Source: a virus | IMG/VR virus record: IMGVR_UViG_3300040801_002669 | Coordinates: 1 to 60,802 of that record | Length of the DNA stretch: 60,802 nucleotides | Strand: one strand, 5' to 3' | In this document: in pieces, positions 17,683 to 43,739 of the stretch | How the letters are laid out: each line of letters opens with the position of its first letter | Position numbering within the stretch: the first letter of the stretch is position 1 | The notes under the pieces: generated by a model | The model's input: the letters and a program-made list of their open reading frames with translations, nothing else | Database searches by the model: none | What the model was told of the DNA's origin: nothing | Program-made: the position numbers and the translations under genes

Positions 17683-17716
17683 GATTGATCACCCCAGATG
17701 CCCGTTTCGTTCACCC
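17683..17716 (+). repeat. Dispersed bipartite repeat, copy R0 (degenerate)
   Basis: GATTGATC, 13 bases, then GTTTCGTTCACCC. Matches the consensus GATTGATG-N13-ATTTCGTTCTTGG with the same spacing but with changes at the last base of box 1, the first base of box 2, and the end of box 2. Orientation is plus, like the other copies. Confidence 0.55.
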
Positions 17717-18385
17717 ACCCCCCTGCCCTGCCTGAAAGGGAATTTGGGTTGGAGTAGGAATCGGCCGCTTCCGGGGGGCCAGGCCGACTAGTCAATCGGG
17801 GGCCCCGGTCCCCACGGTACCATTGGACCATACGCGACAATGCGTCCGAGACTGTACCGCGCGCAACGGGCCCGAGACGCGTCTCGAGTTTCCCGCGTCT
17901 CGCGTCTCGAGGATTCCGCGGTACCGCGCGGGCCCGACGGACCGGACCGGGGCCCGCGGCATGCTCGGATCCGAAACGCGGCCGCGGGAATCGGGCCGGC
18001 ATGGGGGCCCCCGTTACGCTGCAACCCGCAACCCGCAACCCGGGACCGGCCGCGGTACCGGGACCGGGACCGGGGACCGGCCGCGGGCCCGTGTTTTGAA
18101 TCAACCCGCGGACCGGGGCCCGCGGTACCCTTGCGCGCAACCCCCGGAACCCGGGCCCGTATCCCGCGCGCCATGGGGCCCGAGCCCGAGCCCGGATCCG
18201 GGGCCCCCGATGCACTGGTGGAATTTCGAGCCCGGGGCCCGCGCGCCTTTCGGACCGGGGGCCCGGTTTATTTCCCCCGGGGGCCCCTTGAAAGCTTGAC
18301 AGTGTACCGGGAGCGGAAGCATGGGACCGTAGCCTAACGGGGGAACATTCTACTAAGCTTGAATGGTACCCATCGCACCGTAGCA

Positions 18386-18403
18386 GGTAGAGTCTTCTCT
18401 ACC
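18386..18403 (+). other. Hairpin in divergent region
   Basis: GGTAGAG-TCTT-CTCTACC, a perfect 7-bp stem with a four-base loop, within a locally lower-GC block. No T-run follows, so it is not a standard terminator. It is followed ten bases later by the 12-bp palindrome ATGTATATACAT (about 18413-18424). Confidence 0.5.
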
Positions 18404-18557
18404 CTGTGATGGTATGTATATACATTATGGGGCCCGTGTACCGGTACCGGTCCGGGGGCGATACGGGGGCCCGTGGGGGCCAGGAAACCGTCACATTCTG
18501 GATAACCTAGTACCGGGGGCCCCTACAATCCGGGGGCCCGGGGGCGATCCCGAAACG

Positions 18558-18571
18558 GTGATTTAAATCAC
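18558..18571 (+). promoter_or_regulatory. Perfect palindrome GTGATTTAAATCAC, operator-like
   Basis: 14-bp perfect palindrome 11 bases upstream of the -35 of the first early promoter. Its half-sites GTGAT/ATCAC are the same as those of the inverted repeats inside three early promoters, in the opposite order. Confidence 0.6.
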
Positions 18572-18581
18572 GTTCCACGGG

Positions 18582-18609
18582 TTGACAATCACAACGCGTG
18601 ATATATACT
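18582..18609 (+). promoter_or_regulatory. Early promoter P1 with internal inverted repeat
   Basis: TTGACA (18582-18587), 16-base spacer, TATACT (18604-18609). The spacer contains ATCAC-AACGC-GTGAT (18588-18602). Transcription would begin about 10 bases before GAAAGGGGA and the ATG at 18630. Strong sigma70-like match. Confidence 0.8.
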
Positions 18610-18629
18610 GATATTCGAAAGGGGATACC

Positions 18630-18866
18630 ATGAATCAAGCTTGCTACATTGTCAACTCGCCCCACGGGCCCGCACGGGCTCGGACACTAGAATCCGCCGC
18701 GCGCATGCGGGAAATTCTCGGGGGACATATCACGTTCGGGCATGCGACAGAATGTCCGGAATGTGGTGCGGTCAACCCGGAAACCGAGACGCGTCTCGGA
18801 ACCCTTGGGACCGTGGAATGGTACCGTTGCCGCGCGTGCGGCATGGTCTACGGGGGCCCGAAATGA
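18630..18866 (+). CDS. Small zinc-ribbon-like protein, first early gene
   Basis: 78 residues; ATG four bases behind the leader GAAAGGGGA and directly downstream of promoter P1. Two Cys pairs (C-P-E-C at ~44-47 and C-R-A-C at ~69-72, 22 residues apart) form a probable zinc ribbon; the N-terminal half is (YIVNSPHGPARARTLESAARM). As the first gene of the early operon it is a candidate host-takeover protein, but no family is recognised. Confidence 0.75.
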   Translation: MNQACYIVNSPHGPARARTLESAARMREILGGHITFGHATECPECGAVNPETETRLGTLGTVEWYRCRACGMVYGGPK

Positions 18867-19123
18867 ATACCGCGGAATCTATCAGAACAGCTAACGCGCG
18901 TTACAGGTTGCGCGAAATGCTCGCACGGTGCGATGCATTTGCCGATGCCGCTATCACTCTCGGTTATTCCGACGAGCCGCGCGCGGCTCGGATCATGAAC
19001 GGTTTTTTAATGGCAGAGTGGGGACTCGCGGTATTCTACCGTCGGGAATTTGAGGATTCTACCGCGATTGATAATGGCCTAAAATCGGGACGCGTATACG
19101 TTCCCGAGTCCGTCTCATTCTAG
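18863..19123 (+). CDS. Hypothetical early protein
   Basis: 86 residues; ATG overlaps the preceding stop by four bases (ATGA), indicating coupled translation. Helical sequence (MLARCDAFADAAITLGYSDEPRAARIMNGFLMAEW) without a known motif. Codon use is rich in CGCG-containing codons, like the rest of the island. Confidence 0.7.
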   Translation: MNTAESIRTANARYRLREMLARCDAFADAAITLGYSDEPRAARIMNGFLMAEWGLAVFYRREFEDSTAIDNGLKSGRVYVPESVSF

Positions 19124-19133
19124 GGGGCCCGCT

Positions 19134-19322
19134 ATGCTTTATGAATTAATTGCAAATTCCGCACGGGTTATTGAAGCGCTTCAATCCGATGATTCCGACG
19201 AGGATATTTTTTCGCTCATTTCCGACCGGGATGATTCCCGCGCGGACCGCGACCCGTTGGGGGATCCGGCCCGGTTCGGGACGCGTCTGCGTGACGGTTT
19301 CGCGCTGCTCGGGATGGAGTAA
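19134..19322 (+). CDS. Small acidic early protein
   Basis: 62 residues, ATG preceded by GGGGG. N-terminal helix (LYELIANSARVIEALQ), then an Asp/Ser-rich segment (SDDSDEDIFSLISDRDDSRADRD). Net strongly acidic; small acidic early proteins in phages are sometimes DNA mimics or inhibitors, but that is only a possibility. No family recognised. Confidence 0.6.
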   Translation: MLYELIANSARVIEALQSDDSDEDIFSLISDRDDSRADRDPLGDPARFGTRLRDGFALLGME

Positions 19323-19327
19323 ATACC

Positions 19328-19543
19328 ATGCCGCGGATTGAAGTCTATTTTTTGTCCGATTCCGAGATTCCAGACTTTGCCAACGGGGCTCGATTGTATG
19401 ATCATGAATTGACAATTGACGTCAAAACGTGGAATTCCGCGCGCAATCTTGCGCGCGAGATTGCCGCGAGCAACCCGCGGACATACGTGCTAACCCGCCC
19501 CATAACCCGCGCCATGCGACGCGGGACCGTATACGTTAGGTAA
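19328..19543 (+). CDS. Hypothetical early protein
   Basis: 71 residues. Begins with a beta strand (IEVYFLSDSEIPDFANGARLYDHELTI), then a helix SARNLAREIAAS and a basic end (RAMRRGTVYVR). The gene is followed by an 87-base gap with a 9-bp GGGCCC-type hairpin. Function unknown. Confidence 0.65.
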   Translation: MPRIEVYFLSDSEIPDFANGARLYDHELTIDVKTWNSARNLAREIAASNPRTYVLTRPITRAMRRGTVYVR

Positions 19544-19558
19544 CCCGCGGGCCTGAAT

Positions 19559-19581
19559 CACGGGCCCCGTGCGGGCCCGTG
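19559..19581 (+). other. 9-bp hairpin between early genes
   Basis: CACGGGCCC, 5-base loop, GGGCCCGTG. No T-run follows. It may be a transcript-processing or attenuator structure, or simply another product of the palindrome bias of this island. Confidence 0.45.
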
Positions 19582-19630
19582 TTACGGTCCCCCGGAATAA
19601 ACCGGAACCGAAACGAAAGGGGATTCTAGA

Positions 19631-19852
19631 ATGTACGCCAAAGGCAACCCGCGGACAAAAAAAGAATTGAAGCGTATGGTGGAACGATATCGGGACGGTG
19701 TCGGGGGCCCGGTTTACGCGTTTCAACCCGGGGGAATGTTCCCGGGGGCGACCGACGGGCCCGCGACAATTGAGGGGCCCCATTATCCCGAGCCACACAA
19801 ATTCTATGCTTCCGTGATTCTACAGAATTCCATCATCATTTCCGTCAAGTGA
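19631..19852 (+). CDS. Hypothetical early protein, basic N-terminus
   Basis: 73 residues, seven bases behind GAAAGGGGA. The first 20 residues are basic (NPRTKKELKRMVERYRDG), a pattern seen at the start of several short phage proteins that continue with a Pro/Gly-rich segment; the end is a hydrophobic strand (KFYASVILQNSIIISVK). Function unknown. Confidence 0.65.
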   Translation: MYAKGNPRTKKELKRMVERYRDGVGGPVYAFQPGGMFPGATDGPATIEGPHYPEPHKFYASVILQNSIIISVK

Positions 19853-19864
19853 ACGGGGGATACA

Positions 19865-20137
19865 ATGTCGGTTTACTATGTTCTCACGGTTTGTCTTGAC
19901 AATGCAGCATTCTGGAATGAGACGGGCCCGGATCCGGGCCCGGAACTCGCGCGGGTTCTCCGGAATGCCGCGGACATCGCAGAGAATCACGGGCCCGGGA
20001 GCGGGCTCACTCTAACAATGCATCATGATTCGAACGGAAATATTTGCGGGGATTCCCGCATTTTCCGGGCCCGGGAATCCTATCGCGAGAATCTGAAAAA
20101 CCGGTATAACGTTCCGACTCCGGAGATTTCAGAATGA
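19865..20137 (+). CDS. Hypothetical early protein
   Basis: 90 residues. The first 60 read as alpha/beta (YYVLTVCLDNAAFWNE ... LARVLRNAADIAENHGPGSGLTLTMHHDSNGNICGDSRIF), resembling short phage proteins with an 'N-T-A-A-F' helix, a 'DxNGNxCG' turn and a final strand. It overlaps the gp88-like gene start by four bases. Function unknown. Confidence 0.65.
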   Translation: MSVYYVLTVCLDNAAFWNETGPDPGPELARVLRNAADIAENHGPGSGLTLTMHHDSNGNICGDSRIFRARESYRENLKNRYNVPTPEISE

Positions 20138-20790
20138 GCGGTGGATCATATCGAATCAGAATCTCGCCCGGGAACCGGAAGATGGGGCGAATCCCTTCTA
20201 TCTCGCTCCCGCCAATTATCACTTGCGACCCGGGGGCCCCATGCGCGCGCGATTTTTGCGGCCGCGGGATTGAATGCTATGTTGTCCGGAATATGCTTCG
20301 TGGGCCCCATGCGCGCGCCATTGCCGCATCATACCGCGCCAACCTGGAATTCTACCGCGCGGATCCGGCCGGTTTTTTCGAGCAATTGCACCGTTACCTA
20401 ACCCGGGCCCGACCCGCCCATTTCCGTTTCCACGTTTCCGGGGATTTCCCGGATCCGGAATATTTCCGCGCGTCTCTGAATACCGCGCGCGCATTTCCCG
20501 AAACCGGTTTTTTAGCTTTCACGAAACGCGCGAATTTTCTACCGCGCGGCCGCGCGCGCGCAACGGTTCCGGAGAATTTCACTCTCATTCAAAGCATGTG
20601 GCCAAATTGGACGAACGGAAACGGCCGCGCGGTCCCGGGATACGGCCGCGCCTACATGCTCGACCCGACCCGACCCGACCCGAGGATCCCGCGCAACGCG
20701 TTGCGGTGTCCCGGGAACTGTGAAACGTGTAACGCATGTTGGAATATTGACGCCATTACCGCGCGCGCGGTAGTGTTTCCGCGCCATTAA
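20134..20790 (+). CDS. gp88-family phage protein
   Basis: 218 residues. The pattern K-M-G-x-I-P-S-I-S-L-P-P, C-x(5)-C-x(3)-C, F-R-F-H-V-S-G-D-F-P-D-P-E-Y-F and F-L-A-F-T-K is the phage gene-product-88 family as I know it, and a C-terminal cluster C-x3-C-x2-C-x2-C-W fits the same family. The clustered cysteines suggest a metal or iron-sulphur site. Function in phages is unestablished. The ATG overlaps the previous stop by four bases. The gene lies inside the palindrome-rich island and shares its codon bias. Confidence 0.8.
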   Translation: MSGGSYRIRISPGNRKMGRIPSISLPPIITCDPGAPCARDFCGRGIECYVVRNMLRGPHARAIAASYRANLEFYRADPAGFFEQLHRYLTRARPAHFRFHVSGDFPDPEYFRASLNTARAFPETGFLAFTKRANFLPRGRARATVPENFTLIQSMWPNWTNGNGRAVPGYGRAYMLDPTRPDPRIPRNALRCPGNCETCNACWNIDAITARAVVFPRH

Positions 20791-20804
20791 CGGGGGCCCG
20801 CATC

Positions 20805-21050
20805 ATGAGTGTATTTTTGGCCATCATCGCGGGTTCCGGAATCACTGTCGCGTCATGGGTCGCCTTTCACTATGGTTTCCGTCAAGGGTACCGCGTCGGA
20901 TTCCGCGCGGGTTGCGATCGCATGCGCGCGGCATTTCTAACGGTGCTAGAATCCGCTCGACTTGAATTTTCAATCCGCGCCATTTCCAAGGGTTCCGAAT
21001 TGGCGGATTCTATCATCGCTGCATTTCGGGACGCTACCCGGAAATTCTAA
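20805..21050 (+). CDS. Small membrane-anchored early protein
   Basis: 81 residues. The N-terminal segment (VFLAIIAGSGITVASWVAFHYGF) is one transmembrane helix, followed by Q-G-Y-R-V-G-F-R-A-G-C-D-R and a cytoplasmic helix (LESARLEFSIRAISKGSELADSI). Last gene of the first early operon; an intrinsic terminator begins 20 bases downstream. Confidence 0.7.
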   Translation: MSVFLAIIAGSGITVASWVAFHYGFRQGYRVGFRAGCDRMRAAFLTVLESARLEFSIRAISKGSELADSIIAAFRDATRKF

Positions 21051-21070
21051 CCCGCGCGGCCGCGCGCGCA

Positions 21071-21108
21071 TTAACCCGGGGCCCCACGGTCCCGGGTTAA
21101 ATTTTTTT
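21071..21108 (+). terminator. Intrinsic terminator of the first early operon
   Basis: TTAACCCGGG, ten-base loop, CCCGGGTTAA, then A and seven T. Perfect 10-bp stem followed by a T-run, 20 bases after the stop of the membrane protein gene. Confidence 0.9.
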
Positions 21109-21129
21109 CACCAAATGGCCAGGTCGCCC

Positions 21130-21425
21130 GCACTGGTGAAACTTGCACGTTTGCTCAATTGAGCCCTCGAGCACCTGGCCGGCGCCGGCCGCGACATTTG
21201 CACACTTGCTCAATTGCTCGATACCAGAAATGGCGGCGTCGCGACAGTTGCTCAATTGCTCAAATGAGCTCTCGAGCAACCAGGCCGATACTTGAGCAAT
21301 TGCTCAAATGAGCACTGGTGGGACAGTTGCACGTTCGCGCAAGTGAGCAACACCACAGTTGAGCAATTGCTCAAATGAACCATGGCACCAGTGAACCATT
21401 GCACCATTGCTTATTTGAGCAACCC
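21130..21425. repeat. Iteron-like palindrome cluster, candidate origin or partition site
   Basis: Non-coding. Units built on TTGCTCAATTGCTCAA/TTGAGCAATTGCTCAA recur at about 21151, 21207, 21248, 21292 and 21359; two copies (21292-21307, 21359-21374) are perfect 16-bp palindromes. CACTGGTG...TTGCACGTT repeats at 21131 and 21314. The block is AT-richer than its surroundings and lies between a terminator and promoter P2. Such clustered iterons are typical of replication origins or centromere-like sites; this role is inferred. Confidence 0.65.
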
Positions 21426-21436
21426 CTCAACAATCG

Positions 21437-21470
21437 GATTGATGAGTTCCAGACCTCATTTCGTTCTTGG
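21437..21470 (+). repeat. Dispersed bipartite repeat, copy R1
   Basis: GATTGATG, 13 bases, ATTTCGTTCTTGG. Exact consensus boxes; follows the iteron cluster. ATGAG/CTCAT flanks the spacer and could pair. About 120 bases follow before the next promoter with no gene. Confidence 0.8.
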
Positions 21471-21587
21471 CTTCTCGGCGAGGCGCGGCCAGCCGGGTCG
21501 GCAGCGGCGAGGCGCGGCATCGTTTTTCACCAGCTCGATCTCGAGGTCGCCGCCGCTCCGCGCCCTGGATTCCCGCTCCTTAGGGGG

Positions 21588-21617
21588 TTGACAAGGCATC
21601 ACGTTTCGCGATACAAT
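21588..21617 (+). promoter_or_regulatory. Early promoter P2 with internal inverted repeat
   Basis: TTGACA (21588-21593), 18-base spacer, TACAAT (21612-21617). ATCAC-GTTTC-GCGAT (21598-21612) is the same inverted repeat as in P1 and P3 with one mismatch. GAAAGGGGA and an ATG follow. Confidence 0.8.
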
Positions 21618-21642
21618 GGTTGTGTAAGAAAGGGGATTGACC

Positions 21643-22026
21643 ATGGCACCGTCCGGACCGACCTGCTCCATCCCGGCCCACACTCACATTCCGGCGCTCG
21701 CCTCCGTGGTCGCCCGCATGTACCCCGGCAACGGGCGCGCCTTCGACCTCTGCCTCGCTCACCTTCTCCGCGACAGTCTCCTCGACGGGCAGGGTTGGGT
21801 CCGCTCCTACTGTGTGATCTGCGATACCTGCGACCGCGCGGGAGTGGATCACCTCACGGCGCTCGATGCCTTCGTGGAGATCGTGATCGGTCACCTCGGC
21901 CACAATCTCCACGTCTGGAAGTCGCAGTGGACCAAGGTCGATTCCAACGGCACCGAGGACGGGTCGAAAGACCTCCCGACGTTCGTGGTGCCTGATCCTC
22001 TCACCTCCGGGCGGGGGTCGAAATGA
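21643..22026 (+). CDS. Hypothetical early protein
   Basis: 127 residues; ATG six bases behind GAAAGGGGA under promoter P2 (an in-frame TTG lies six bases upstream). Begins with CSIPAHTHIPALASVVARMYPGN and has one C-V-I-C-D-T-C cluster near residue 57 that may bind metal. The C-terminal third is polar. First gene of the second early operon; codon use is closer to the main genome than that of the island. Function unknown. Confidence 0.7.
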   Translation: MAPSGPTCSIPAHTHIPALASVVARMYPGNGRAFDLCLAHLLRDSLLDGQGWVRSYCVICDTCDRAGVDHLTALDAFVEIVIGHLGHNLHVWKSQWTKVDSNGTEDGSKDLPTFVVPDPLTSGRGSK

Positions 22027-22066
22027 CCCCCCGCCCCTTTTTCAACGACCCCCCCCTCCGGTCAAT

Positions 22067-23437: not shown

Positions 23438-23438
23438 G

Positions 23439-24397: not shown

Positions 24398-24474
24398 AGT
24401 TGAGCAACTGTCCCAATGTTCAACTGCACCAGTGAACCATTGCTCAGTTGAAACCAGGCTCACGAGTCCGCGCC
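24398..24474 (+). repeat. Second copy of the iteron-type sequence
   Basis: GAGTTGAGCAACTG..., then GCACCAGTGAACCATTGC (24427-24444), an 18-mer also present in the first block at about 21386-21403, then TCAGTTGAA. Precedes copy R2 of the bipartite repeat in the same order as at 21.1-21.47 kb. Confidence 0.65.
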
Positions 24475-24508
24475 GATTGATGAGTCTGGAAGTCCATTTC
24501 GTTCTTGG
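24475..24508 (+). repeat. Dispersed bipartite repeat, copy R2
   Basis: GATTGATG, 13 bases (AGTCTGGAAGTCC), ATTTCGTTCTTGG. The spacer centre TCTGGAA is the inverse complement of the TTCCAGA in copies R1 and R3. 18 bases before the ATG at 24527. Confidence 0.8.
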
Positions 24509-24526: not shown

Positions 24527-25273
24527 ATGAGCGAGATCATCGAGAGCGTTCCGTGGGCCTGCGGCGAGCGCGACTGCTCGGCCGGTTGGCACCTCGCAAC
24601 CTACTGGATCGACGACGACGGCACCTTCACGGTGGACAGCTACTCCGACGGCGACCACGACGAGATCGACCGGCCCCCGACGTGCCGCGAGATCGCGACC
24701 GCGTGGCTCGCGTACTGGACCGAGGTGCTCGAGACGGGGTCGGATCCGCTCCATCAGCTCCGGAGCCGCACGGTGGACAAGACCCGGACGTGGCAGATCC
24801 GGATCGCCAACTCCATCATCGGTCCGGTCCTGCACTCGGTCCGGCCCGCCACGAAGGACGGTGACCACTTCCACGGTCGCGGTGGATGGTTCTACGGGTC
24901 CGAGATCCCGTCCCACGTCGCCGACTACATGCTCTTCGAGCACCGGGAGAAGTCGAGCCGGTACTGGACCGTCATCCCGGACTACCAGCACAAGAACGAC
25001 CCCCACGGTTTCGCGCGGTATCTCGAGGTCGTGCGCGATGCCGCGGCGACCAGCGACGACGTGACCGATCCCCGACCGTCGCCGAGGACCACCGGGGTCC
25101 ATTTTTTCGCTCTCATCTCTCACAAGGTGACCCTCCCCCCCACGGCGACGACCGTCCGCAAGATCGCCCGCAAGGCGATCAGCGACTGGACGCTGCTCCG
25201 CGACGAGGATCCGCCGTGCATCAGGTGCGGCGCGCCCGAGTCGGCCTGCGAGTGCGGGCCCAAGGAGGTGTAG
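24527..25273 (+). CDS. Hypothetical early protein with C-terminal Cys-rich tail
   Basis: 248 residues; ATG five bases behind GAAAGGGGA. N-terminal C-G-E-R-D-C-S-A-G-W-H-L, a central alpha/beta region with H-G-R-G-G-W-F-Y-G-S and W-T-V-I-P-D-Y-Q-H, and a C-terminal zinc-ribbon-like C-I-R-C-G-A-P-E-S-A-C-E-C. No family recognised. Confidence 0.7.
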   Translation: MSEIIESVPWACGERDCSAGWHLATYWIDDDGTFTVDSYSDGDHDEIDRPPTCREIATAWLAYWTEVLETGSDPLHQLRSRTVDKTRTWQIRIANSIIGPVLHSVRPATKDGDHFHGRGGWFYGSEIPSHVADYMLFEHREKSSRYWTVIPDYQHKNDPHGFARYLEVVRDAAATSDDVTDPRPSPRTTGVHFFALISHKVTLPPTATTVRKIARKAISDWTLLRDEDPPCIRCGAPESACECGPKEV

Positions 25274-25514: not shown

Positions 25515-25712
25515 ATGCTGATCCCCATCGAGGACTGCGAGGTCCGCTGGCGCTATTGGGTCCGCGAGGACTCGCCGCTGGTCGAGTGGCTCATGCGGAA
25601 GGCACCGTGGCTCGACTTCGAGCGGATGGGGGCGGGGTGGATCGTGACCTGCTGGAGGCCGATTGATGACTTCCAGAGGCCATTTCGTTCTTGGCTTTCC
25701 GACAACGACTGA
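25515..25712 (+). CDS. Hypothetical early protein whose C-terminus is encoded by the dispersed repeat
   Basis: 65 residues. Sequence LIPIEDCEVRWRYWVREDSPLV... is followed by R-P-I-D-D-F-Q-R-P-F-R-S-W-L-S-D-N-D, the last 17 of which are encoded by repeat copy R3 and its flank. A GTG six bases upstream is an alternative start. The repeat may have inserted at or replaced the original 3' end. Confidence 0.6.
   Translation: MLIPIEDCEVRWRYWVREDSPLVEWLMRKAPWLDFERMGAGWIVTCWRPIDDFQRPFRSWLSDND
25661..25694 (+). repeat. Dispersed bipartite repeat, copy R3
   Basis: GATTGATG, 13 bases (ACTTCCAGAGGCC), ATTTCGTTCTTGG. GCCA/TGGC flank the TTTCGTTCT core and can form a 4-bp stem. Overlaps the end of the 65-residue gene and lies 28 bases before the next ATG. 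Confidence 0.85.
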
Positions 25713-25722: not shown

Positions 25723-26229
25723 ATGCCGCAGACGGGAACCTACCGCAGGAACCTCAAGCTCGGACAGGGGCTCTGGACTCCCTACGCCAAAGTGTGGTGC
25801 GCCAAGTGTGCCAAGGAGAACCGCGCCCCGATCTCGGACTTCGAGAACCGCGGCAAGCCGCGTCACTACGAGTACGGGAGCGGCACCCTCCAGGGTTGGT
25901 GCAGCGACTGCGGGGCCGAGGTCTGGATCGACTCGAAGATCGCGCAGGAGCAGCGCATGGTCAGGGCCCTGAATGAGGTCGGGGTACCGGCTGAGATGGA
26001 TCAGACCGGCGGGATGTGCTCGGCGGTCGTCGTCCGCGGGCCGCATCAGGACTTCTACATCAACGTGTTCGGCGACGAGGAGTCGATGGAGGACTACGGG
26101 GCGAACTGGATGCTCGGCCTCTTCACTGAGGAGGACGCCGAGTGCGTCGATGACGCCGGGAACGAGTGCTTCAGCTTCGACGACGCCGTCGAGCGCGTCG
26201 TGACCCTCTACACCGCGATCGCCCACTAG
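25723..26229 (+). CDS. Zinc-ribbon-containing early protein
   Basis: 168 residues; ATG behind GAGGAGG. C-A-K-C (~27-30) and C-S-D-C (~60-63) with intervening beta strands suggest a zinc ribbon; the C-terminal half is acidic (FGDEESMEDYGANWMLGLFTEEDAE) and resembles a small alpha/beta domain. A longer frame upstream reads through repeat R3 but lacks a ribosome site. Function unknown. Confidence 0.7.
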   Translation: MPQTGTYRRNLKLGQGLWTPYAKVWCAKCAKENRAPISDFENRGKPRHYEYGSGTLQGWCSDCGAEVWIDSKIAQEQRMVRALNEVGVPAEMDQTGGMCSAVVVRGPHQDFYINVFGDEESMEDYGANWMLGLFTEEDAECVDDAGNECFSFDDAVERVVTLYTAIAH

Positions 26230-27317: not shown

Positions 27318-27584
27318 ATGAACACCGAGAACGTGATCCGGAAGCACCGCGCCGGCCGATTCAGGATCGAGGAGCGGCTGGAGGGCGGGCGGAAGATCGT
27401 CTACGTCAACGGGGTGGAGACGGCGGGGTCTTTTTCGGACGCCATCACCAAGTCGAGGCAGGCCCCCTACCGCAAGATGCTCGGCGAGGTCCGGGACATG
27501 CTCGACGAGATCAAGCGGATCAAGGAGCGCGCCGACGACCTCGACGACCACGACTGCCGGGAGATCGAGCATGACGACTACTGA
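27318..27584 (+). CDS. Hypothetical early protein with C-terminal coiled coil
   Basis: 88 residues. N-terminal beta hairpin (GRFRIEERLEGGRKIVYVNG), then a long charged helix (MLGEVRDMLDEIKRIKERADDLDDHD). Overlaps the following gene by 14 bases. Function unknown. Confidence 0.65.
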   Translation: MNTENVIRKHRAGRFRIEERLEGGRKIVYVNGVETAGSFSDAITKSRQAPYRKMLGEVRDMLDEIKRIKERADDLDDHDCREIEHDDY

Positions 27585-28110
27585 GCAATTCCCGACCTAT
27601 CCGATCTACCACCTCAAGCTTGCGTGGGTGACGCCGGATGGGAAGCCGGATGGCACCTCCGGACGCGTCATGGTGCGTTGGCAGAATCACCACGCTGAGG
27701 CGGTCAGGGTCGCCTTCTCCTGGGCCGAGCAGTCCGCCGAGAAGGCAGGAATCGACCCACTCGAGATCGAGATCGCGGTTCGGTTCGTCGAGGTCGAGGA
27801 GTGGTGCCTGTCATGGTTCAGCCACTACACGTTCGACGTCGGGCAGTCGGACGCCGAGGCGATCGCGAGCTTTTCGAGGTACGTCTCCAGGACCGAGGCG
27901 TACAACCGGCGCAACCAGGAGCGCCATGTCTCGGACGATGGAAGCGTCTGGTACTGCGATCCGCGATGCCTGATGGGGGCCGAGGATAGGTGGAGGTGGA
28001 CGGCCCGTGGATGTGGGACGTCGAGACTCGGGACCGGTGAATCCACCGGGGAGGCGCCATGCCGGTGCAAGGACTGCCGCGCTGCCGGCGTCCTCCGGAT
28101 CGACCACTAA
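27571..28110 (+). CDS. Hypothetical early protein with C-terminal Cys cluster
   Basis: 179 residues. First 100 residues: alpha/beta with F-S-W-A-E-Q-S-A-E-K-A-G and W-C-L-S-W-F-S-H-Y-T-F. C-terminal C-D-P-R-C and C-R-C-K-D-C suggest a metal site. Function unknown. Confidence 0.65.
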   Translation: MTTTEQFPTYPIYHLKLAWVTPDGKPDGTSGRVMVRWQNHHAEAVRVAFSWAEQSAEKAGIDPLEIEIAVRFVEVEEWCLSWFSHYTFDVGQSDAEAIASFSRYVSRTEAYNRRNQERHVSDDGSVWYCDPRCLMGAEDRWRWTARGCGTSRLGTGESTGEAPCRCKDCRAAGVLRIDH

Positions 28111-28843: not shown

Positions 28844-29074
28844 ATGGCCCTCACCGAGTACCCCCGCCCGACGTGGAAGACAGAGGGCATCACGTGCGTC
28901 GTCTGCGGCAAGCTCGAGCAGCGCCTCGGCGGGGTCCGCATCTGCATGGACTGCTTCTCGTGGGCGCGGGACGTCGGGGTCGTCGTCATGTACGACGAAA
29001 CGGAATGGAGGTTCCGTGGCGAGGGCGGATCGATTGTCCGCGACCCGGGAGACTCGGCGGCGATCCATGACTGA
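28844..29074 (+). CDS. Small zinc-ribbon protein
   Basis: 76 residues; ATG behind GGGGAGG. C-V-V-C (~19-22) and C-M-D-C (~34-37), spaced 15 residues, form a short zinc ribbon. The rest is polar. Overlaps the next gene by eight bases. Confidence 0.65.
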   Translation: MALTEYPRPTWKTEGITCVVCGKLEQRLGGVRICMDCFSWARDVGVVVMYDETEWRFRGEGGSIVRDPGDSAAIHD

Positions 29075-29462
29075 TCTATTCATCGCCTATGAGTTCCCGG
29101 ACCCGTGGGCGAGCCGGATGCTGGACGCCGACACGAGCCTCGTGGCTCTCGTCGAGCGGCTCAGGTCGAAGCGGGTCACCGTCACGACCTACGGGCCCGC
29201 GATCTACCGGAGTCCGGCTGGCGCGGACCCGATGCTCGCTGGGGTGCCGGTCTGCCTCTGGCGCGGCGGCGACGTCGTGTGCCAGGTCGGAGGCGACCAC
29301 CACGGCGCATCTGAGCAACCGCTCGATCATCACGATGGATTGATGAGTTCTGTGAGCCATTTCGTTCTTGGCTTGGAGGAAGAAGATGGAGAAGTGCAAG
29401 GCCTGCGGGGCCGAGATCCGATGGGTGAAGATGGAGCGGACCCAGAAGTCGATGCCGGTTGA
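29067..29462 (+). CDS. Hypothetical protein extended through the dispersed repeat
   Basis: 131 residues. Residues 1-85 look like a normal small alpha/beta protein (LFIAYEFPDPWASRML ... VCLWRGGDVVCQVGG). The frame then runs through repeat copy R4 (L-M-S-S-V-S-H-F-V-L-G) and 77 bases into the next gene, giving an acidic low-complexity tail. The original protein probably ended near residue 90 before the repeat arrived. Confidence 0.55.
   Translation: MTDLFIAYEFPDPWASRMLDADTSLVALVERLRSKRVTVTTYGPAIYRSPAGADPMLAGVPVCLWRGGDVVCQVGGDHHGASEQPLDHHDGLMSSVSHFVLGLEEEDGEVQGLRGRDPMGEDGADPEVDAG
29338..29371 (+). repeat. Dispersed bipartite repeat, copy R4
   Basis: GATTGATG, 13 bases (AGTTCTGTGAGCC), ATTTCGTTCTTGG; AGCCA/TGGCT can pair around TTTCGTTCT. 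Preceded by CTGAGCAACCGCTCGA, a remnant of the iteron motif. 14 bases before the ATG at 29386. Confidence 0.85.
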
Positions 29463-29577
29463 CTTCGAGCCGCTCAAGGTCGTCGTCATGGGGGACAACG
29501 GGTGGAAGGTCGTGACCGGCTACACCAGCCATTTCGCGACCTGCGCTCACGCCGCCATGTTCCGGAAAGGAGACTGA
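29386..29577 (+). CDS. Small zinc-finger-like protein
   Basis: 63 residues; ATG behind TTGGAGG, which is part of the flank of repeat R4. K-C-K-A-C-G-A-E-I-R-W and a C-terminal H-F-A-T-C-A-H-A form a C-x2-C...H/C set typical of short phage zinc-finger proteins ('C-x-x-C-G-x-x-I-x-W' then 'S-H-F-x-x-C'). Probable nucleic-acid binding; role unknown. Confidence 0.7.
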   Translation: MEKCKACGAEIRWVKMERTQKSMPVDFEPLKVVVMGDNGWKVVTGYTSHFATCAHAAMFRKGD

Positions 29578-29578: not shown

Positions 29579-29821
29579 ATGGCAAGGGAGTTCGATACAC
29601 TGGGAGAGCTGCTCAAGGCACGGGGGGTGAACCTGACCAACTTCGGCAAGAGCATGGGCTGGACTCAGCCCACCACCTCGATGAAGCTCAACCGCAACCG
29701 CGCGTGGTCGATCGACGAGTACGAGCTCGCGCTCGAGCGGCTCCAGCGGCGCGGCATCCGCATCTCGCGCAAGGACATGCTCCGGATGATCTCGAGGAGG
29801 CCAGACGATGGTGACGCGTGA
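29579..29821 (+). CDS. Helix-turn-helix DNA-binding protein
   Basis: 80 residues; ATG behind AAAGGAG. Residues ~7-55 read L-G-E-L-L-K-A-R-G-V-N-L-T-N-F-G-K-S-M-G-W-T-Q-P-T-T-S-M-K-L-N, an XRE/Cro-like helix-turn-helix, followed by a helical tail. It is the only clear small DNA-binding regulator seen in the early module, so it is a candidate for binding the ATCAC-N5-GTGAT operators. It overlaps the exonuclease gene by 14 bases. Confidence 0.65.
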   Translation: MAREFDTLGELLKARGVNLTNFGKSMGWTQPTTSMKLNRNRAWSIDEYELALERLQRRGIRISRKDMLRMISRRPDDGDA

Positions 29822-34891: not shown

Positions 34892-35292
34892 GCGACGACA
34901 TCAACTTGTATTCGACCCACGTCTACATCGACTGCGAACGATGCGGGGCGGACATTGAGATTTCGGTGTCGGACGATTGGATGTTCCTCGCTCCGGTAAC
35001 CGGGCCCGTGCTTTGCTCGAACTGCCGCGAGATCGACAGGCTCAAGGAAGAACTCGCCACAGCCCGAGGAGAGCAGAAGGCGTGTCCCGGGTGTGGGCGG
35101 CTCTGGATGCGCGACAAGCCGTGCCCGTGGTGCCGCATCGCCGAGCTTGAGGCAACCCTCAAGGCGATCATGAGCTACGACGAGCAGCCGGGGTCGATGT
35201 CGGGCCCAAGCGAGTTCGAGCTTCGGAACCAGATCCGGAACATGAAGAGGATCGCCAAAGCGGCCCTCGTCGCCACGCGGGAGGGGATGTGA
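34888..35292 (+). CDS. Double zinc-ribbon protein with coiled coil
   Basis: 134 residues. C-E-R-C and C-S-N-C (first ribbon), a short helix (EIDRLKEELATARGEQK), C-P-G-C and C-P-W-C (second ribbon), and a C-terminal helical part. Arrangement suggests a dimer with metal sites. Overlaps both neighbours by four bases. Confidence 0.7.
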   Translation: MSDDINLYSTHVYIDCERCGADIEISVSDDWMFLAPVTGPVLCSNCREIDRLKEELATARGEQKACPGCGRLWMRDKPCPWCRIAELEATLKAIMSYDEQPGSMSGPSEFELRNQIRNMKRIAKAALVATREGM

Positions 35293-35765
35293 ACATCGAG
35301 ATCAGGCTCGAGGGCGAACCGCACGCCCAGCAACGCCACCGGGCCCGGAGGGTCGGCTCGGTCGGCATCCGGACCTACGACAACCCGAGGTCGGCCGACT
35401 GGAAGAAGCGGGCCCGCCTCGAGATGCTCTCCCAGCTCCCGATTGATGGGCCGAAACCCGTATTTCGTTCTGGGGTTCCGCTTCGGGTGATGATCACGGC
35501 GCACTTCGAGTGTCCGAAGGGCGAGCGCCGGAAGCGCCAGCCGCGGCTCTTCCGGTGGCACACCAAGAAGTCCGACGCCGACAACATCGCGAAGGCGGTG
35601 CTCGACGCGGCGAACGGGATCCTCTGGCACGATGACGCCCAGATCGCGCAGCTCCTCGTGACCAAGATGGTGGCGGCGCAGGACACGGCGCCGTGCGTTC
35701 TCGTCGATGTCAGGGAGCTTCCGGATCAACCGCGCTACGTCAGCGGCGAATACCGATTCCCGTGA
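35289..35765 (+). CDS. rusA: RusA-like Holliday junction resolvase carrying a repeat insertion
   Basis: 158 residues from GTG 35289 (GTGA overlap). K-K-S-D-A-D-N-I-A-K-A-V-L-D-A-A-N-G-I-L-W-H-D-D-A-Q-I is the RusA catalytic core (Asp residues). N-terminal P-H-A-Q-Q-R-H-R is also typical. Between them, residues ~51-62 (PIDGPKPVFRSG) are encoded by copy R5 of the dispersed repeat, in frame. The active site is intact, so the enzyme is probably functional. Confidence 0.85.
   Translation: MNIEIRLEGEPHAQQRHRARRVGSVGIRTYDNPRSADWKKRARLEMLSQLPIDGPKPVFRSGVPLRVMITAHFECPKGERRKRQPRLFRWHTKKSDADNIAKAVLDAANGILWHDDAQIAQLLVTKMVAAQDTAPCVLVDVRELPDQPRYVSGEYRFP
35441..35474 (+). repeat. Dispersed bipartite repeat, copy R5, inside rusA
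   Basis: GATTGATG, 13 bases, ATTTCGTTCTGGG. Box spacing identical to intergenic copies; one base differs in box 2. It is read in frame in the resolvase gene. Confidence 0.75.
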
Positions 35766-38872: not shown

Positions 38873-39472
38873 ATGAAGCACATCATCTGGATCGATCTCG
38901 AAACCGGTGGTCTGGACTGTGACAAGTTCCAGATCACGCAGATCGGCGGCATCGTCACGGAGCTGGGCCCGAGCTTCAAGAGGGTCGGCGAGCCGTTCGA
39001 GCGCAAGGTGAAGCTCGTCCCCGGCCGCTACACAGAGGAGGCGCTCAAGGCCCAGAACTTCAGCATCCCGGTCTGGGACGCCGAAGCGGTGACGATCGCC
39101 GACGCCCTCGGCGCGCTCTACAAGTGGGCGGAGCCGTGGGCCGACGAGCGCACGAGCGCCAAGGGCAACACCTACAAGGCCGCGGACGTGGCCGGGTTCA
39201 ACGTCATCTTCGACGCCGACTTCCTGCGCGCGGCCTCGAAGCGCAACGGTGTTTGGCTCCCGCTCGCGACCTGGACGTCCGGGATGCTCGACGTCCTCCA
39301 GCTCGCGAAGTGGACGTGCGCGCTGCATGGCCTCGAGCCGCCGAACTTCCAGCTCCGGTCGCTCTGCAAGTTCTTCGACATCGACGACGCGGCGCTGACG
39401 GCCCACGACGCCCTCGGCGACGTGCTCGCGACGCTCGCCCTGTTCCGGGCCCTCCAGAACTACGAGGCCTAG
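38873..39472 (+). CDS. DEDDh 3'-5' exonuclease
   Basis: 199 residues; first gene under promoter P3, ATG six bases behind GAAAGGGGA. Exo I W-I-D-L-E-T-G-G (6-13), exo II G-F-N-V-I-F-D-A-D-F-L, exo III A-H-D-A-L-G-D-V give the D-E-D-D-h set of the DnaQ/oligoribonuclease superfamily. Likely a stand-alone proofreading or nucleotide-recycling nuclease, since no DNA polymerase is encoded here. Confidence 0.88.
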   Translation: MKHIIWIDLETGGLDCDKFQITQIGGIVTELGPSFKRVGEPFERKVKLVPGRYTEEALKAQNFSIPVWDAEAVTIADALGALYKWAEPWADERTSAKGNTYKAADVAGFNVIFDADFLRAASKRNGVWLPLATWTSGMLDVLQLAKWTCALHGLEPPNFQLRSLCKFFDIDDAALTAHDALGDVLATLALFRALQNYEA

Positions 39473-39474
39473 CG

Positions 39475-39891
39475 ATGGGCTGGAAGATCATCGACGCCTA
39501 CAGCAAGGTCGAGGCGACGCCGTGGGTGTCCATCGGCGTCCACGCCAAGCCGGGTGGGGGCCAGATCAAGATCACGATGTCCCAGACGATCACGGAGCAC
39601 CTCGGTGTCGCCGACGGTGACAGGGTGATGGTCAGCCGGGGCATGGGCGACCATGAGGGGTGGCTCCAGATCCAGAAGTCGCCGTCGTGGTACGAGCACG
39701 GGATGACCCTCAGCAATAGGAAGACCAAGAAGGGGAACCTGTTCTTCCGAACGAACGCGGCGCACTTCGGCATTCGTGGTCGGCATTCGACGAAGAAGAT
39801 CACCACCGACGACGCCGCACTCATCTTGACCTACGACACCGATCTCGCGGAGCCGGCGATCCAGGTTGAGATGCCAGAGGAGATGCGATGA
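39475..39891 (+). CDS. Hypothetical early protein
   Basis: 138 residues. Beta-rich first half with V-S-I-G-V-H-A-K-P-G-G-G-Q-I-K-I-T-M-S and H-L-G-V-A-D-G-D-R-V-M-V; an AbrB-like or small barrel fold is possible. C-terminal basic then acidic. No family recognised. Confidence 0.65.
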   Translation: MGWKIIDAYSKVEATPWVSIGVHAKPGGGQIKITMSQTITEHLGVADGDRVMVSRGMGDHEGWLQIQKSPSWYEHGMTLSNRKTKKGNLFFRTNAAHFGIRGRHSTKKITTDDAALILTYDTDLAEPAIQVEMPEEMR

Positions 39892-40181
39892 GCGACCACG
39901 ACATCAGGCCGCGCCGTGTTGGACAGGACTGGATCTGTGCCACGGAGTGCCCCCAAATGGCCGACCACGACTTTGTCTATTTGAGGTGCGGAATTGATGG
40001 TGAGGCTCGCAGACACGCTGATGCGCCGAAGAGCCAGCCACCGCATCTTTGCCCCCACCACGCCCGCCGCGTCGCCGCCGAGCGGGACAGGCTGCGGGAC
40101 GCCATCCGCACCGCCCTGGACGAGTCCACGACCTACGACGAGGTAGAGGCGCGGCTGATCGGGCTGGTGGAGGAGGAGTGA
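39888..40181 (+). CDS. Hypothetical early protein with scattered Cys/His
   Basis: 97 residues; ATGA overlap with the previous stop. C-A-T-E-C, L-R-C-G and H-L-C-P-H-H may form a metal site; C-terminal helix (ERDRLRDAIRTALDESTTYDEVEARLI). Function unknown. Confidence 0.65.
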   Translation: MSDHDIRPRRVGQDWICATECPQMADHDFVYLRCGIDGEARRHADAPKSQPPHLCPHHARRVAAERDRLRDAIRTALDESTTYDEVEARLIGLVEEE

Positions 40182-40498
40182 TGGACTATCAAGAAGAAGC
40201 CGAGCGGTGGCTTGATCAATGGGGTGGACTCGGCAGCGTCCAGCGACTCACTCGGTGTGGCTATGCCGCCGAGAAGGCCCTCGGTCTTGATGAACACAGC
40301 AACTCCCCGGCTGACGTTAGTGAGCGTATCGACCGCCTCACCGCCGAGAACCACCGGCTGCGTGAGTGGGCGGTGAAGGCACACGGGCTCTGCGGTGGAC
40401 TCCACTACTCACCCGGAGCGATGAACCTTGCTCAATGGGTCGTGGACATCGTGAAGGAATTGCAGTCTACCTACCCCACCGACGAGGAGGTGGGTTGA
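40181..40498 (+). CDS. Hypothetical early protein
   Basis: 105 residues; TGATG junction behind GAGGAGG. Helical, with E-R-W-L-D-Q-W-G-G-L-G-S and H-G-L-C-G-G-L-H-Y-S-P-G-A-M. No family recognised. Confidence 0.65.
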   Translation: MDYQEEAERWLDQWGGLGSVQRLTRCGYAAEKALGLDEHSNSPADVSERIDRLTAENHRLREWAVKAHGLCGGLHYSPGAMNLAQWVVDIVKELQSTYPTDEEVG

Positions 40499-40941
40499 TG
40501 GATCACGACACAGCGGCACGCCTGAGGGCATTCAAGAACAACTGCAACTGCGGCGGCTATGCGAGGGACGGCGAACACCCGCACCTCTCGTGGTGCCAAC
40601 AGTACGAGGAATACGAGGAGTGGTACAAGGCAGTCACAAGCGACGGCTCAACCAAGACACCAAGCGCCCGCATCGCCGAGCTGGAGTCGTCGAACGAGGC
40701 GCTGCGGGAGATTGCAAACGAGCTGAAGGATCAGTCTGCCAAGGATTGTCAGCGCGTCGCCGACTTGGAGGCGCAGCTCGCCCGGGCGATGGAGTGTTCC
40801 AGTCAGACCCGCGCAGCCCTGATGAGTCTGCGCGAGATCGTCCGGCACCGGGCAGACCTCCAGTCGATGGACAAGGTCACGGTTGACTTGGCTGGCAGCG
40901 TCCTGGAGCGGCACGAGTGGATCGACCTGGAGCGGGGCTGA
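40498..40941 (+). CDS. Hypothetical coiled-coil early protein
   Basis: 147 residues; TGATG junction behind GAGGTGG. N-terminal C-N-C-G-G-Y and H-L-S-W-C, then a long coiled coil (ARIAELESSNEALREIANELKD ... VADLEAQLARAME). Function unknown. Confidence 0.65.
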   Translation: MDHDTAARLRAFKNNCNCGGYARDGEHPHLSWCQQYEEYEEWYKAVTSDGSTKTPSARIAELESSNEALREIANELKDQSAKDCQRVADLEAQLARAMECSSQTRAALMSLREIVRHRADLQSMDKVTVDLAGSVLERHEWIDLERG

Positions 40942-40960
40942 TGCGCCAACCGGAGGAACC

Positions 40961-41770
40961 ATGAAGCGAAGACCTCGCATTCTGCGCGTTTTCCCGCGCC
41001 GCACGAGGGCGACCCCGTTCGACGAATTAACAGCATTCGGGCCACCCGGCCTATTCGCAGACGAGTCGGAATTCGACGAGGTTCATGTGTCTGTTACGTT
41101 CTCGTGGGATCTTGAATACGCCAAGCAGCTCTTCGACGCATGGGATTTCTTCGCGCCAGGGCGTGTCCGGATCGGTGGGCCAGCATTCAACGAGCGCAGC
41201 GAGGAGTTTGTTGGAGGCCTTTATATCGCCAACGGCTACACGATTACCAGCCGAGGATGTCCAAGAAAGTGCTGGTTCTGCCGCGTGCCGAAAGTCGAAG
41301 GTGGGATACGCGAACTCGACATCGTGCCAGGGTGGAATGTTCTGGACGACAACATCCTCGCCACGTCTGACGATCATTTCCTGCGTGTTTGCGAGATGCT
41401 CGGAAGGCAGAGGCGCCAAGCCGAGTTCACCGGTGGCCTTGACGCCGAGCTTCTCACTGATTTCCACATCAACCTGCTCTCAAACATCAAGCCAAGGCCA
41501 GTGTGCTTCTTCGCATTCGATCCGGGAGATGAGTTCTGCGCCCTGAAATCGGCCGCGGATCGGATGCTGTCAGCCGGATGGACGACCGCATCAGGACGTC
41601 CGGCTCATTCTCTGAGATGTTACGTGTTGATTGGGCACCCCAGAGACACGCCCGAAGAAGCCGAGGCCCGTCTCGAGCAGATGTTGTCGATTGGGTTCAC
41701 GCCGATGGCGATGCTGTGGAAAAACGAGACGACCGGGTTACCAAAGAGCGACCGGTGGTACGGGCTATAG
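40961..41770 (+). CDS. Radical SAM protein
   Basis: 269 residues; ATG behind CGGAGG. S-R-G-C-P-R-K-C-W-F-C (C-x3-C-x2-C) is the radical SAM iron-sulphur site; F-T-G-G-L-D-A-E-L-L and Y-V-L-I-G-H-P-R-D-T-P-E-E-A-E-A-R-L fit the barrel. The N-terminal part (FPRRTRATPFDELTAFG) is typical of phage radical SAM proteins that resemble B12-binding-type members without the B12 domain. Substrate unknown; it is not a standard QueE. Confidence 0.82.
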   Translation: MKRRPRILRVFPRRTRATPFDELTAFGPPGLFADESEFDEVHVSVTFSWDLEYAKQLFDAWDFFAPGRVRIGGPAFNERSEEFVGGLYIANGYTITSRGCPRKCWFCRVPKVEGGIRELDIVPGWNVLDDNILATSDDHFLRVCEMLGRQRRQAEFTGGLDAELLTDFHINLLSNIKPRPVCFFAFDPGDEFCALKSAADRMLSAGWTTASGRPAHSLRCYVLIGHPRDTPEEAEARLEQMLSIGFTPMAMLWKNETTGLPKSDRWYGL

Positions 41771-41839
41771 AAACGATGGGCGCGGCCGATGTTGATTCAC
41801 AGCAGGAATGCAACACCATGACGTGCTATCATCAACCTG

Positions 41840-41899
41840 CGCGTCGGGTATCTCCTGGAGGGTTTGTTATCCCCTTTCTCTTTCAGGAAGCCCGACGCG
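41840..41899 (+). ncRNA. Structured leader upstream of the membrane/queC-like pair
   Basis: CGCGTCGGG (41840-41848) pairs perfectly with CCCGACGCG (41891-41899); TCCTG/CAGGA can extend it inward, leaving a pyrimidine-rich inner loop with CCCCTTTCTCTTT. The 9-bp stem ends 9 bases before AAGGAGG of the next gene. Lies in a 150-base gene-free gap. A riboswitch or attenuator is possible; it does not match the preQ1-I consensus I know. Confidence 0.5.
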
Positions 41900-41921
41900 A
41901 ATTTCGTTAAGGAGGACGGCG

Positions 41922-42068
41922 ATGCATAGACGGCTGGTACACAGCCCGACCGGCCTGACGTGGAGGGCGACGCTCCCGGGGTACGGGTACACATGGTGGC
42001 AGTGGGTCGCGCTCGCCCTCGGGGCGGCGCTCGTCGTCTGGCTGGTTGTCGCGAGCGGAGGATCATGA
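41922..42068 (+). CDS. Small single-span membrane protein
   Basis: 48 residues; ATG behind AAGGAGG. C-terminal membrane helix (WWQWVALALGAALVVWLVVAS). Overlaps the queC-like start. Function unknown. Confidence 0.6.
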   Translation: MHRRLVHSPTGLTWRATLPGYGYTWWQWVALALGAALVVWLVVASGGS

Positions 42069-42748
42069 TGAGCAAGCGAGCCGTCGTTCTGTTGTCCGGG
42101 GGCCTAAATTCGTTTGTCGCCGCGAAGTTCGTTCAGACCGTCGGGGTCGAGATCGTCGAGGCGATCTGCTTCAACTACGGCCAGGAGCACTGCGACGAGA
42201 TCGACTACGCCGCCGAGCTCGCGGCGCGTCTCGACGTTCCGTTCTCGTCCATCCAGGCGTCGATGCTCTGGGAGATGACCGACAGGCTGACCCACGAGCA
42301 GGCCGCGCACATGACGCAGGTTGGCCTCAACAACTCGTTCTGGTTCGGGCGCAGGCTCGCGATCCACCTCCTCGGGGCCTCTCGGGCGCAAGCCCTGAAC
42401 GCCGGCATGGTCGTCAGCGGCAGCACGATGGCGCGCGTGTCGGACGGTGGTGCCGCGATCGACTTCCTCCAGAAGGCAATCGACGCCGAGCACTTCGACG
42501 TCAAGATCGAGGTGCCGTTCATCGGGACCGAGCTCGGGCACGCCTTCAAGGTCGCTCACGCCCTCGACATCTTCGACGAGGCCGTCGCCATGACCTACGA
42601 CTGCCTCCACGGGAGCCATGACCAGCACGACTGGGGGCGCGGCTGCGGCGAGTGCGAAGGGTGCCTACGGCGCGCCGAGGGCCACCGGGTGATCACCGGC
42701 CACCTCCTCGAGTCGTTCAACGCGAAGCGCGCGGAGGTTCCGTCATGA
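42068..42748 (+). CDS. queC: QueC-like 7-cyano-7-deazaguanine synthase homologue
   Basis: 226 residues from ATG 42068 (an ATG three bases upstream is the alternative). QueC makes preQ0 from carboxydeazaguanine. Seen: PP-loop L-L-S-G-G-L-N-S (Asp of S-G-G-x-D-S replaced by Asn), F-N-Y-G-Q-E-H, and the C-terminal zinc motif C-G-E-C-E-G-C-L-R-R. PreQ0 feeds queuosine or 7-deazaguanine DNA modification in phages, but no QueD, QueE, FolE or DpdA was recognised, so it may use host intermediates or have another substrate. Confidence 0.8.
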   Translation: MSKRAVVLLSGGLNSFVAAKFVQTVGVEIVEAICFNYGQEHCDEIDYAAELAARLDVPFSSIQASMLWEMTDRLTHEQAAHMTQVGLNNSFWFGRRLAIHLLGASRAQALNAGMVVSGSTMARVSDGGAAIDFLQKAIDAEHFDVKIEVPFIGTELGHAFKVAHALDIFDEAVAMTYDCLHGSHDQHDWGRGCGECEGCLRRAEGHRVITGHLLESFNAKRAEVPS

Positions 42749-43167
42749 ACGACGAGATGATCGAGGAGCTCATCATCGAGAAGCTCAGGTGCTACGCAGT
42801 CACCAACGTCGCGCCGTCGTTCCTGCGGGATCTGGAGGTGAAGATCGAGCACAAGGTAGATTTCGTCGGCTCAGGACTGTGGGACGCGATCAGGCTCAGG
42901 GCGCTGATCCCGGGGTCGAAGGACGTCCGTGTCCTGCGAGAGATCGAGTACCCGGCGAGCCTGTGGGACTGCGTGAAGAAGTACCTCGGCCTCAACTACA
43001 AGGTCGAGGTCTGCCCAGTCGAGGTCACCATCATCCACACATGTCCGCACCTCGAGATGCCGCCGAATCGGTCGGACACCATCCACTGGTTCAAGTCCGT
43101 GGCCTACCGACCGGTCGAGGACGACGACGTCAACCAGACTATTGGAGTTCGCCGTGACCCCAGATGA
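42745..43167 (+). CDS. Hypothetical early protein
   Basis: 140 residues; ATGA overlap with the queC-like gene. Alpha/beta with L-R-C-Y-A-V-T-N-V-A-P-S-F-L-R-D, E-Y-P-A-S-L-W-D-C-V and a strand E-V-C-P-V-E-V-T-I-I-H-T-C. Not a QueD (no paired His motif). Function unknown. Confidence 0.65.
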   Translation: MNDEMIEELIIEKLRCYAVTNVAPSFLRDLEVKIEHKVDFVGSGLWDAIRLRALIPGSKDVRVLREIEYPASLWDCVKKYLGLNYKVEVCPVEVTIIHTCPHLEMPPNRSDTIHWFKSVAYRPVEDDDVNQTIGVRRDPR

Positions 43168-43369
43168 AGCGAAAGAGTACGTCTGTCCGTTTCTCGCATC
43201 GGGCATCCTCAACCAGATGACCGGGAAGAGGCAGGCCGGCGGCGGCGAGAGGTGCCTCGGCGACGACTGCATGTTCTGGGTCGAAACCTACGACCACACC
43301 GGGTGCGCGGTCACCGTCGCTGCGCTCCTGGTTTCGCAGATCGACTGGAACACGTCGGAGAAACGGTGA
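43154..43369 (+). CDS. Small Cys-containing early protein
   Basis: 71 residues from GTG 43154 with GGAG six bases upstream; a TTG at 43142 is an alternative. T-P-D-E-A-K-E-Y-V-C-P-F and R-C-L-G-D-D-C-M-F-W-V-E resemble short phage proteins with a C-x(n)-C-x4-C-M-x-W pattern. Overlaps the previous gene by 14 bases. Confidence 0.65.
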   Translation: MTPDEAKEYVCPFLASGILNQMTGKRQAGGGERCLGDDCMFWVETYDHTGCAVTVAALLVSQIDWNTSEKR

Positions 43370-43482
43370 CCTCCCAGAGCGCCCCTGATTTCTCGCCGAG
43401 GCACCTCGGACGGCCCACCGCACGTCCTGACCGGCCAAAAGCGACAGGGGAGCCCGTTAACGGATTGAGGAGGGCAATTTGA
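43366..43482 (+). CDS. Putative 38-residue polar peptide
   Basis: GTG 43366 overlaps the previous stop by four bases (GTGA); the frame ends by overlapping the next gene's TTG. Pro/Arg-rich and polar (SAPDFSPRHLGRPTARPDRP), without a domain. It may serve only to couple translation between neighbours. Low confidence. Confidence 0.35.
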   Translation: MTSQSAPDFSPRHLGRPTARPDRPKATGEPVNGLRRAI

Positions 43483-43739
43483 CCCTGCGCCTTTGCCCCG
43501 TTTGCGGTCGTCCGGTCGATCAGTCCGGTTCGAGGGCCCCGCGGGTCTACCATCCGGCCTGCAAGAGGGTCCAGAACCACATCGACCTGGCCGTCCGATA
43601 CGCCGCCGATCTCGACCCAGGAGAGATTACGCCTCGGGAGGTTCGGGCACTGTTCCTGCGGGCAGCGAACCGGTTCCGAATCCCTCAATTGAGGAGTTCC
43701 GATGGCCGTTTCGTTTGCGGCTCGGAAGACGACGGCTGA
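43479..43739 (+). CDS. Small zinc-finger protein, last early gene
   Basis: 86 residues from TTG 43479 behind GAGGAGG. C-P-V-C-G-R-P-V and Y-H-P-A-C-K form a C-x2-C...H-x3-C finger. The last ~15 residues are encoded by degenerate repeat copy R6, and the 3' end overlaps the convergent late gene by 113 bases. Confidence 0.65.
   Translation: MTLRLCPVCGRPVDQSGSRAPRVYHPACKRVQNHIDLAVRYAADLDPGEITPREVRALFLRAANRFRIPQLRSSDGRFVCGSEDDG

Follow-up and report, generated by a model that had tools for sequence, protein, structure and literature searches.

Genome organization

The stretch of DNA analysed here (the window) is the whole virus record IMGVR_UViG_3300040801_002669, 60,802 bases with a GC content of 64%. 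According to gene calls made within this analysis, late genes occupy the minus strand at ~2–17.8 kb and 43.9–60.8 kb, and early genes occupy the plus strand at ~18.4–43.8 kb. The early block encodes RecE-like and RecT-like proteins, a replication initiation protein, RusA and a DNA methyltransferase, together with a phosphoadenosine phosphosulfate reductase-like protein and QueC. The QueC-like gene (42065–42748, Pfam E 7.6e-22) suggests deazaguanine chemistry and possibly DNA modification.

Among the proteins scanned we recognised no candidate for a two-domain repressor and no integrase, so that a lysogeny repressor is unproven; the early proteins scanned included no recognisable sigma factor or RNA polymerase. 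The sole helix-turn-helix-like candidate noticed, encoded at 29579–29821, is small and only weakly matches a Cro-like family (DUF739). The structure prediction for a 179-aa protein (27571–28110) was too poor for use.

The interval 17700–21100 is dense in six-base palindromes, with 61.7 per kb versus 11–15 per kb elsewhere, or 210 observed versus 84 expected from dinucleotides. It is rich in GGGCCC, GCGCGC, CCCGGG and CCGCGG, and the remaining genome is depleted in six-base palindromes. This block is possibly foreign or restriction-decoy DNA.

A two-box repeat on one strand

Dispersed through the genome is a repeat whose core, ATTGA-N16-TTTCGTT, is found eight times on the plus strand and never on the minus strand of the 60,802 bases. 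An earlier note on this DNA had described seven copies confined to the early module. All seven are present on the plus strand at the positions below; the confinement was wrong, as an eighth copy, at 13977–14010, sits in the portal gene of the late module. The eight copies are as follows.

13977–14010, plus strand: R0, GATTGATCAGTTTCAGGGGGCGTTTCGTTCTCGG, antisense in the acidic linker of the portal gene (13118–15421, minus strand)
17683–17716, plus strand: degenerate copy, intergenic, beside the small-terminase gene
21437–21470, plus strand: R1, intergenic, directly after a palindromic array and ~120 bp before a sigma-70-like promoter
24475–24508, plus strand: R2, intergenic, 18 nt before the ATG at 24527, with a partial palindromic array (24398–24450) upstream
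25661–25694, plus strand: R3, at the 3′ end of ORF 25515–25712, 28 nt before the ATG at 25723
29338–29371, plus strand: R4, at a gene end, 14 nt before the ATG at 29386, with TGAGCAACCGCTC just upstream
35441–35474, plus strand: R6, inside the RusA gene (35289–35765)
43687–43720, plus strand: R7, degenerate, at the 3′ end of ORF 43479–43739, ~55 bp before a terminator-like hairpin

The repeat is genuine and well outside chance expectation. Under a first-order Markov model, 0.01 core matches are expected in the genome versus the 8 observed. When up to 3 mismatches were allowed, the complete pattern of both boxes turned up 6 times versus none in 100 dinucleotide shuffles, a result that bears out the pattern against shuffled sequence. 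In leave-one-out scoring the weakest of the eight copies reached 20 bits, and the best non-member in the genome at most ~6. The exact spacing between the boxes was likewise confirmed: 16 bases lie between ATTGA and TTTCGTT in every copy, and no other gap occurs within 60 bases.

The repeat is non-palindromic, with two boxes spanning 34–41 bp. The box centres are ~22 bp apart, which is two helical turns and places both on the same helix face, an arrangement one would expect of a site whose protein reads both major grooves from one side. The second box had been taken as fixed through TTGG, but that end varies among copies, and in the best copies conservation extends to ~position 37 (GGCTT/GGCTC). 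R0 is better conserved than the copies at 17683 and 43687. As for the centre of R2, which had been described as inverted, a 7-base in-register match does exist; by a hand estimate it has a ~1% probability of arising by chance over all pairs, making it a weak signal.

Surroundings of the copies

Most copies are intergenic (17683, 21437 and 24475) or at gene ends (25661, 29338 and 43687). The proximity of three copies to start codons was upheld: those at 24475, 25661 and 29338 end 18, 28 and 14 bases upstream, and the start codons downstream of these copies (R2, R3 and R4) have ribosome-binding sites. R6 sits in a RusA loop ~6 residues longer than in most homologues, and box 1 of R7 overlaps CCTCAATTGAGG. 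ORF 29067–29462 reads through R4 and extends 77 bases into the next gene (29386–29577), as though its original stop codon had been moved. From 21437 to 43687, all six copies are co-directional with local transcription. The copy at 13977 is antisense to the portal gene, both it and the copy at 17683 lie outside the predicted rightward transcripts, and the remaining 31 kb of the late region has no further site. The copies span and bracket the early unit, whose predicted control elements are the following.

18582–18609, plus strand: sigma-70-like promoter TTGACA-N16-TATACT, for the first early block
21137–21430, no strand assigned: array of palindromic elements (TTGAGCAATTGCTCAA, TTGCTCAATTGCTCAA) in 8-bp steps, immediately before R1
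21588–21617, plus strand: sigma-70-like promoter TTGACA-N18-TACAAT, for the main early gene block
43774–43800, plus strand: terminator-like hairpin at the end of the early module

A strong terminator-like hairpin at 21071–21100 closes the first early block, and the two sigma-70-like promoters are likewise strong. The promoter scan listed no repeat copy; CGTTCT falls at the −10 position, with no recognisable −10 hexamer.

The palindromic array is probably an operator or an origin. Its elements, TTGCTCAA/TTGAGCAA, are set in 8-bp steps at 21137–21430 and recur as the partial array at 24398–24450; a similar TTGCTCATATGCTCATATGAGC lies beside the small terminase of a relative, L025 (~660–690). Outside the array, TGAGCAA/TTGCTCA half-sites occur in only 7 places, of which 3 lie closely upstream of R2 or R4, an association that was noticed post hoc and is suggestive. 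For the predicted Cro-like product of 29579–29821, the palindromes may be a better-suited target than the two-box repeat.

Conservation in relatives

A search with the large terminase recovered a relative, L023 (large terminase 74% identical), a 12.2-kb contig without the early module and the sole relative known with the motif. It carries three copies, in a genome orientation identical to that in the window. One, at 4447–4487, is orthologous to R0 and lies in the variable acidic linker of the portal, where a 47-base island is 89% identical between the two phages inside an otherwise variable stretch. Within this copy 9 of 9 shared residues use identical codons in both phages (~1.4% by chance), and the portals as a whole are 56% identical. 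Another, at 603–643, is orthologous to the copy at 17683 and likewise lies in the gap next to the small terminase; there GATTGAT and TTTCGTTC persist with unchanged spacing, but the spacer differs between the two phages, as does much of the flanking sequence. The third (314) has no counterpart in the window. The spacer, previously called unconserved, is in fact partly conserved, with C21 in 10 of 11 copies and an AGTTCC-like start in several. Because the boxes were kept at an orthologous site while spacer and flanks diverged, the repeat is, as judged from these alignments, a constrained DNA site and probably not a recent insertion.

The motif is absent from the available parts of L025 (65% terminase identity), L026 (59%) and others at ~55% or less. 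A comparison for insertion-site polymorphism between relatives gave two sites common to the window and L023, one extra in L023 (314) and none in L025. The exact 21-base pattern is absent from the genomes of 84,980 prokaryote species, RecT searches for a host or prophage returned nothing, and looking de novo for comparable two-part repeats in the records of other relatives yielded nothing convincing; an apparently analogous repeat in one of them, G003 (CGTACACCAGCAGG), was rejected as codon-bias noise.

Matches to the pattern in other viral contigs (L008–L013, L024 and L074–L109) were also set aside. They are single copies, mostly in AT-richer contigs; the translated matches are mostly coding, and gene homology to the window amounts to two weak portal matches. 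Many of L074–L109 form an AT-rich phage contig family with a conserved peptide, SRGSNYVISIDExxxxFRSWL, whose DNA mimics the repeat; we judged this likeness to be coincidence. In the window the corresponding frame (IDExxxxFRSWL) is open in the copies translated by hand, and this too was judged a coincidence, because TTC/CGC is never used and the copies lie in different frames and strands. The invariant TTT-CGT, never TTC-CGC in a genome of 64% GC, indicates that the constraint is not codon-based.

Interpretation of the repeat

A bipartite protein site, one of the possibilities raised in the earlier note, fits these data best, given the fixed spacing, the ~22 bp between box centres and the boxes kept in L023 while the spacer diverged. 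We infer, with a probability of about 0.5, that the repeats are polar, asymmetric double-stranded DNA sites for one sequence-specific, probably phage-encoded protein controlling rightward early transcription. One such protein would contact two major-groove boxes, GATTGAT and RTTTCGTTC, about two turns apart on one face of the helix, and would make hardly any demand on the spacer. Bound in this way, it would act as an asymmetric operator or a "stoperator"-like roadblock near gene junctions, by analogy with the stoperators of L5-like mycobacteriophages or the C1 operators of P1, perhaps with a second regulator at the palindromic TTGAGCAATTGCTCAA elements. Control of rightward transcription is suggested because all copies point rightward and span the early unit and its flanks. 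Against this reading, the copies at 13977 and 17683 are off the predicted rightward transcripts, and no cognate protein was recognised among the proteins scanned.

The repeats might instead be phage-specific promoters, with box 1 in the role of a −35 element and box 2 in that of a −10 element, read by host RNA polymerase with an alternative or phage-supplied specificity factor so as to boost early or middle genes. The geometry would suit this (TTGATG, 17 bp, CGTTCT), R2, R3 and R4 end 14–28 nt before start codons with ribosome-binding sites, and some phages are known to encode sigma factors whose promoters recur between genes (PMC4331800). We consider promoters unlikely, though worth keeping in view, since at least 3 of the 8 copies are without a suitably placed gene: 13977 is antisense in the portal gene, 35441 is inside RusA, and 43687 is beside a convergent junction. 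The early proteins scanned also lack a recognised sigma factor or RNA polymerase, and clear sigma-70-like promoters are located elsewhere. An RNA element in early transcripts, such as a hairpin near ribosome-binding sites or an antitermination or processing site, would account for most copies lying in the sense strand of early mRNA. The change of GCCA/TGGC to GCCG/CGGC in some copies had been put forward as a compensated hairpin, but pairing and covariation were no better than in shuffles, and that claim is not supported. RNAalifold predicted no consensus pair for the repeat copies, individual folds were no better than shuffles, and Rfam gave no match for the repeat. With 13977 and 17683 outside the predicted early transcripts as well, we regard an RNA element as highly improbable.

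Another reading is a polar signal comparable to KOPS, Chi or secondary pac sites, oriented by the genome rather than by its genes and acting in DNA replication, segregation, recombination or packaging. One orientation is kept across opposing transcription units (the copy at 13977 being antisense to late genes), on both sides of the possible origin array and in L023, and one copy adjoins the small-terminase gene. A chromosome-polar signal of this kind, kept antisense in a virion protein gene and inside RusA, would be novel and could serve one-way replication, segregation or packaging in the phage lineage. We think this rather doubtful, although with promoters it is one of the two main rivals: the other 31 kb of the late region has no site, the best-matching copies are far from the terminase, and the orientation is unchanged from one side of the array to the other. 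If the copies were relics of a very small mobile element that inserts in one orientation, their tolerance in loops, linkers and gene ends, including the lengthened RusA loop, would be explained. Such an element, also suggested in the earlier note, is disfavoured by the two orthologous positions conserved with L023, a phage whose portal is only 56% identical. The copies have no common flank, and boxes kept without the spacer are the opposite of simple decay after insertion. There is very little probability left for this explanation.

Comparison with known phage systems

The repeat shares features with several dispersed phage motifs. The sigma-factor promoters of phages 7-11 and phiEco32 are compact motifs of 9–12 bp with a cognate phage sigma factor (PMC4331800). 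They resemble the present case in being a repeated motif, there intergenic, within one phage genome, and differ in that no cognate sigma factor was recognised here among the early proteins scanned. Phage P1 has 22 dispersed, asymmetric C1 operators of 17 bp (PMC8546580). The two-box repeat is likewise dispersed and asymmetric, but differs in sequence, length and two-box structure. In the P1 consensus, ATTGCTCTAATAAATTT, the ATTGCTC is common to the palindromic array of the window, whose half-site resembles the start of the C1 operator, and not to the two-box repeat.

The SAS/ESAS of cluster K mycobacteriophages are 13 bp long with a ribosome-binding core, typically 3–7 bp before start codons (PMC3203893). 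Similar to these, the repeat is asymmetric, has one orientation, lies mainly in the non-structural half and sometimes follows closely on an inverted-repeat element. The parallel with start-associated sequences drawn in the earlier note therefore holds for orientation and mainly non-structural location. It fails for distance to the start codon, which is 14, 18 and 28 bp in three copies, the others not being start-linked.

Stoperators of cluster A (L5-like) mycobacteriophages are continuous 13-bp motifs at more than 20 sites in short intergenic spaces, predominantly in one orientation that follows local transcription, and are bound by a phage repressor that halts transcription and acts as a monomer with two DNA-binding domains (PMC9283540, PMC6550527). 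Like them, our repeat is asymmetric, dispersed and on one strand in 8 of 8 copies; unlike them, it consists of two boxes over 34–41 bp at eight sites. The copies from 21437 to 43687 match the stoperators in following local transcription, whereas the one at 13977 is antisense to the portal gene, likewise in L023. The likeness is therefore an analogy and not membership: the present motif has two parts and greater length, its portal copy runs antisense to the gene, and no repressor was recognised among the proteins scanned.

To our knowledge, few phage groups, with mycobacteriophages and P1 as the chief examples, have protein sites scattered in a single direction. Such sites in a longer, two-box form with strict spacing, conserved at orthologous positions in an uncultured lineage unrelated to these, would extend this dispersed-site regulatory strategy, and the 41 bp repeat offers a compact bait for finding a new phage DNA-binding protein. 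If its orientation proves independent of transcription, the repeat would point to a new polar DNA-processing signal.
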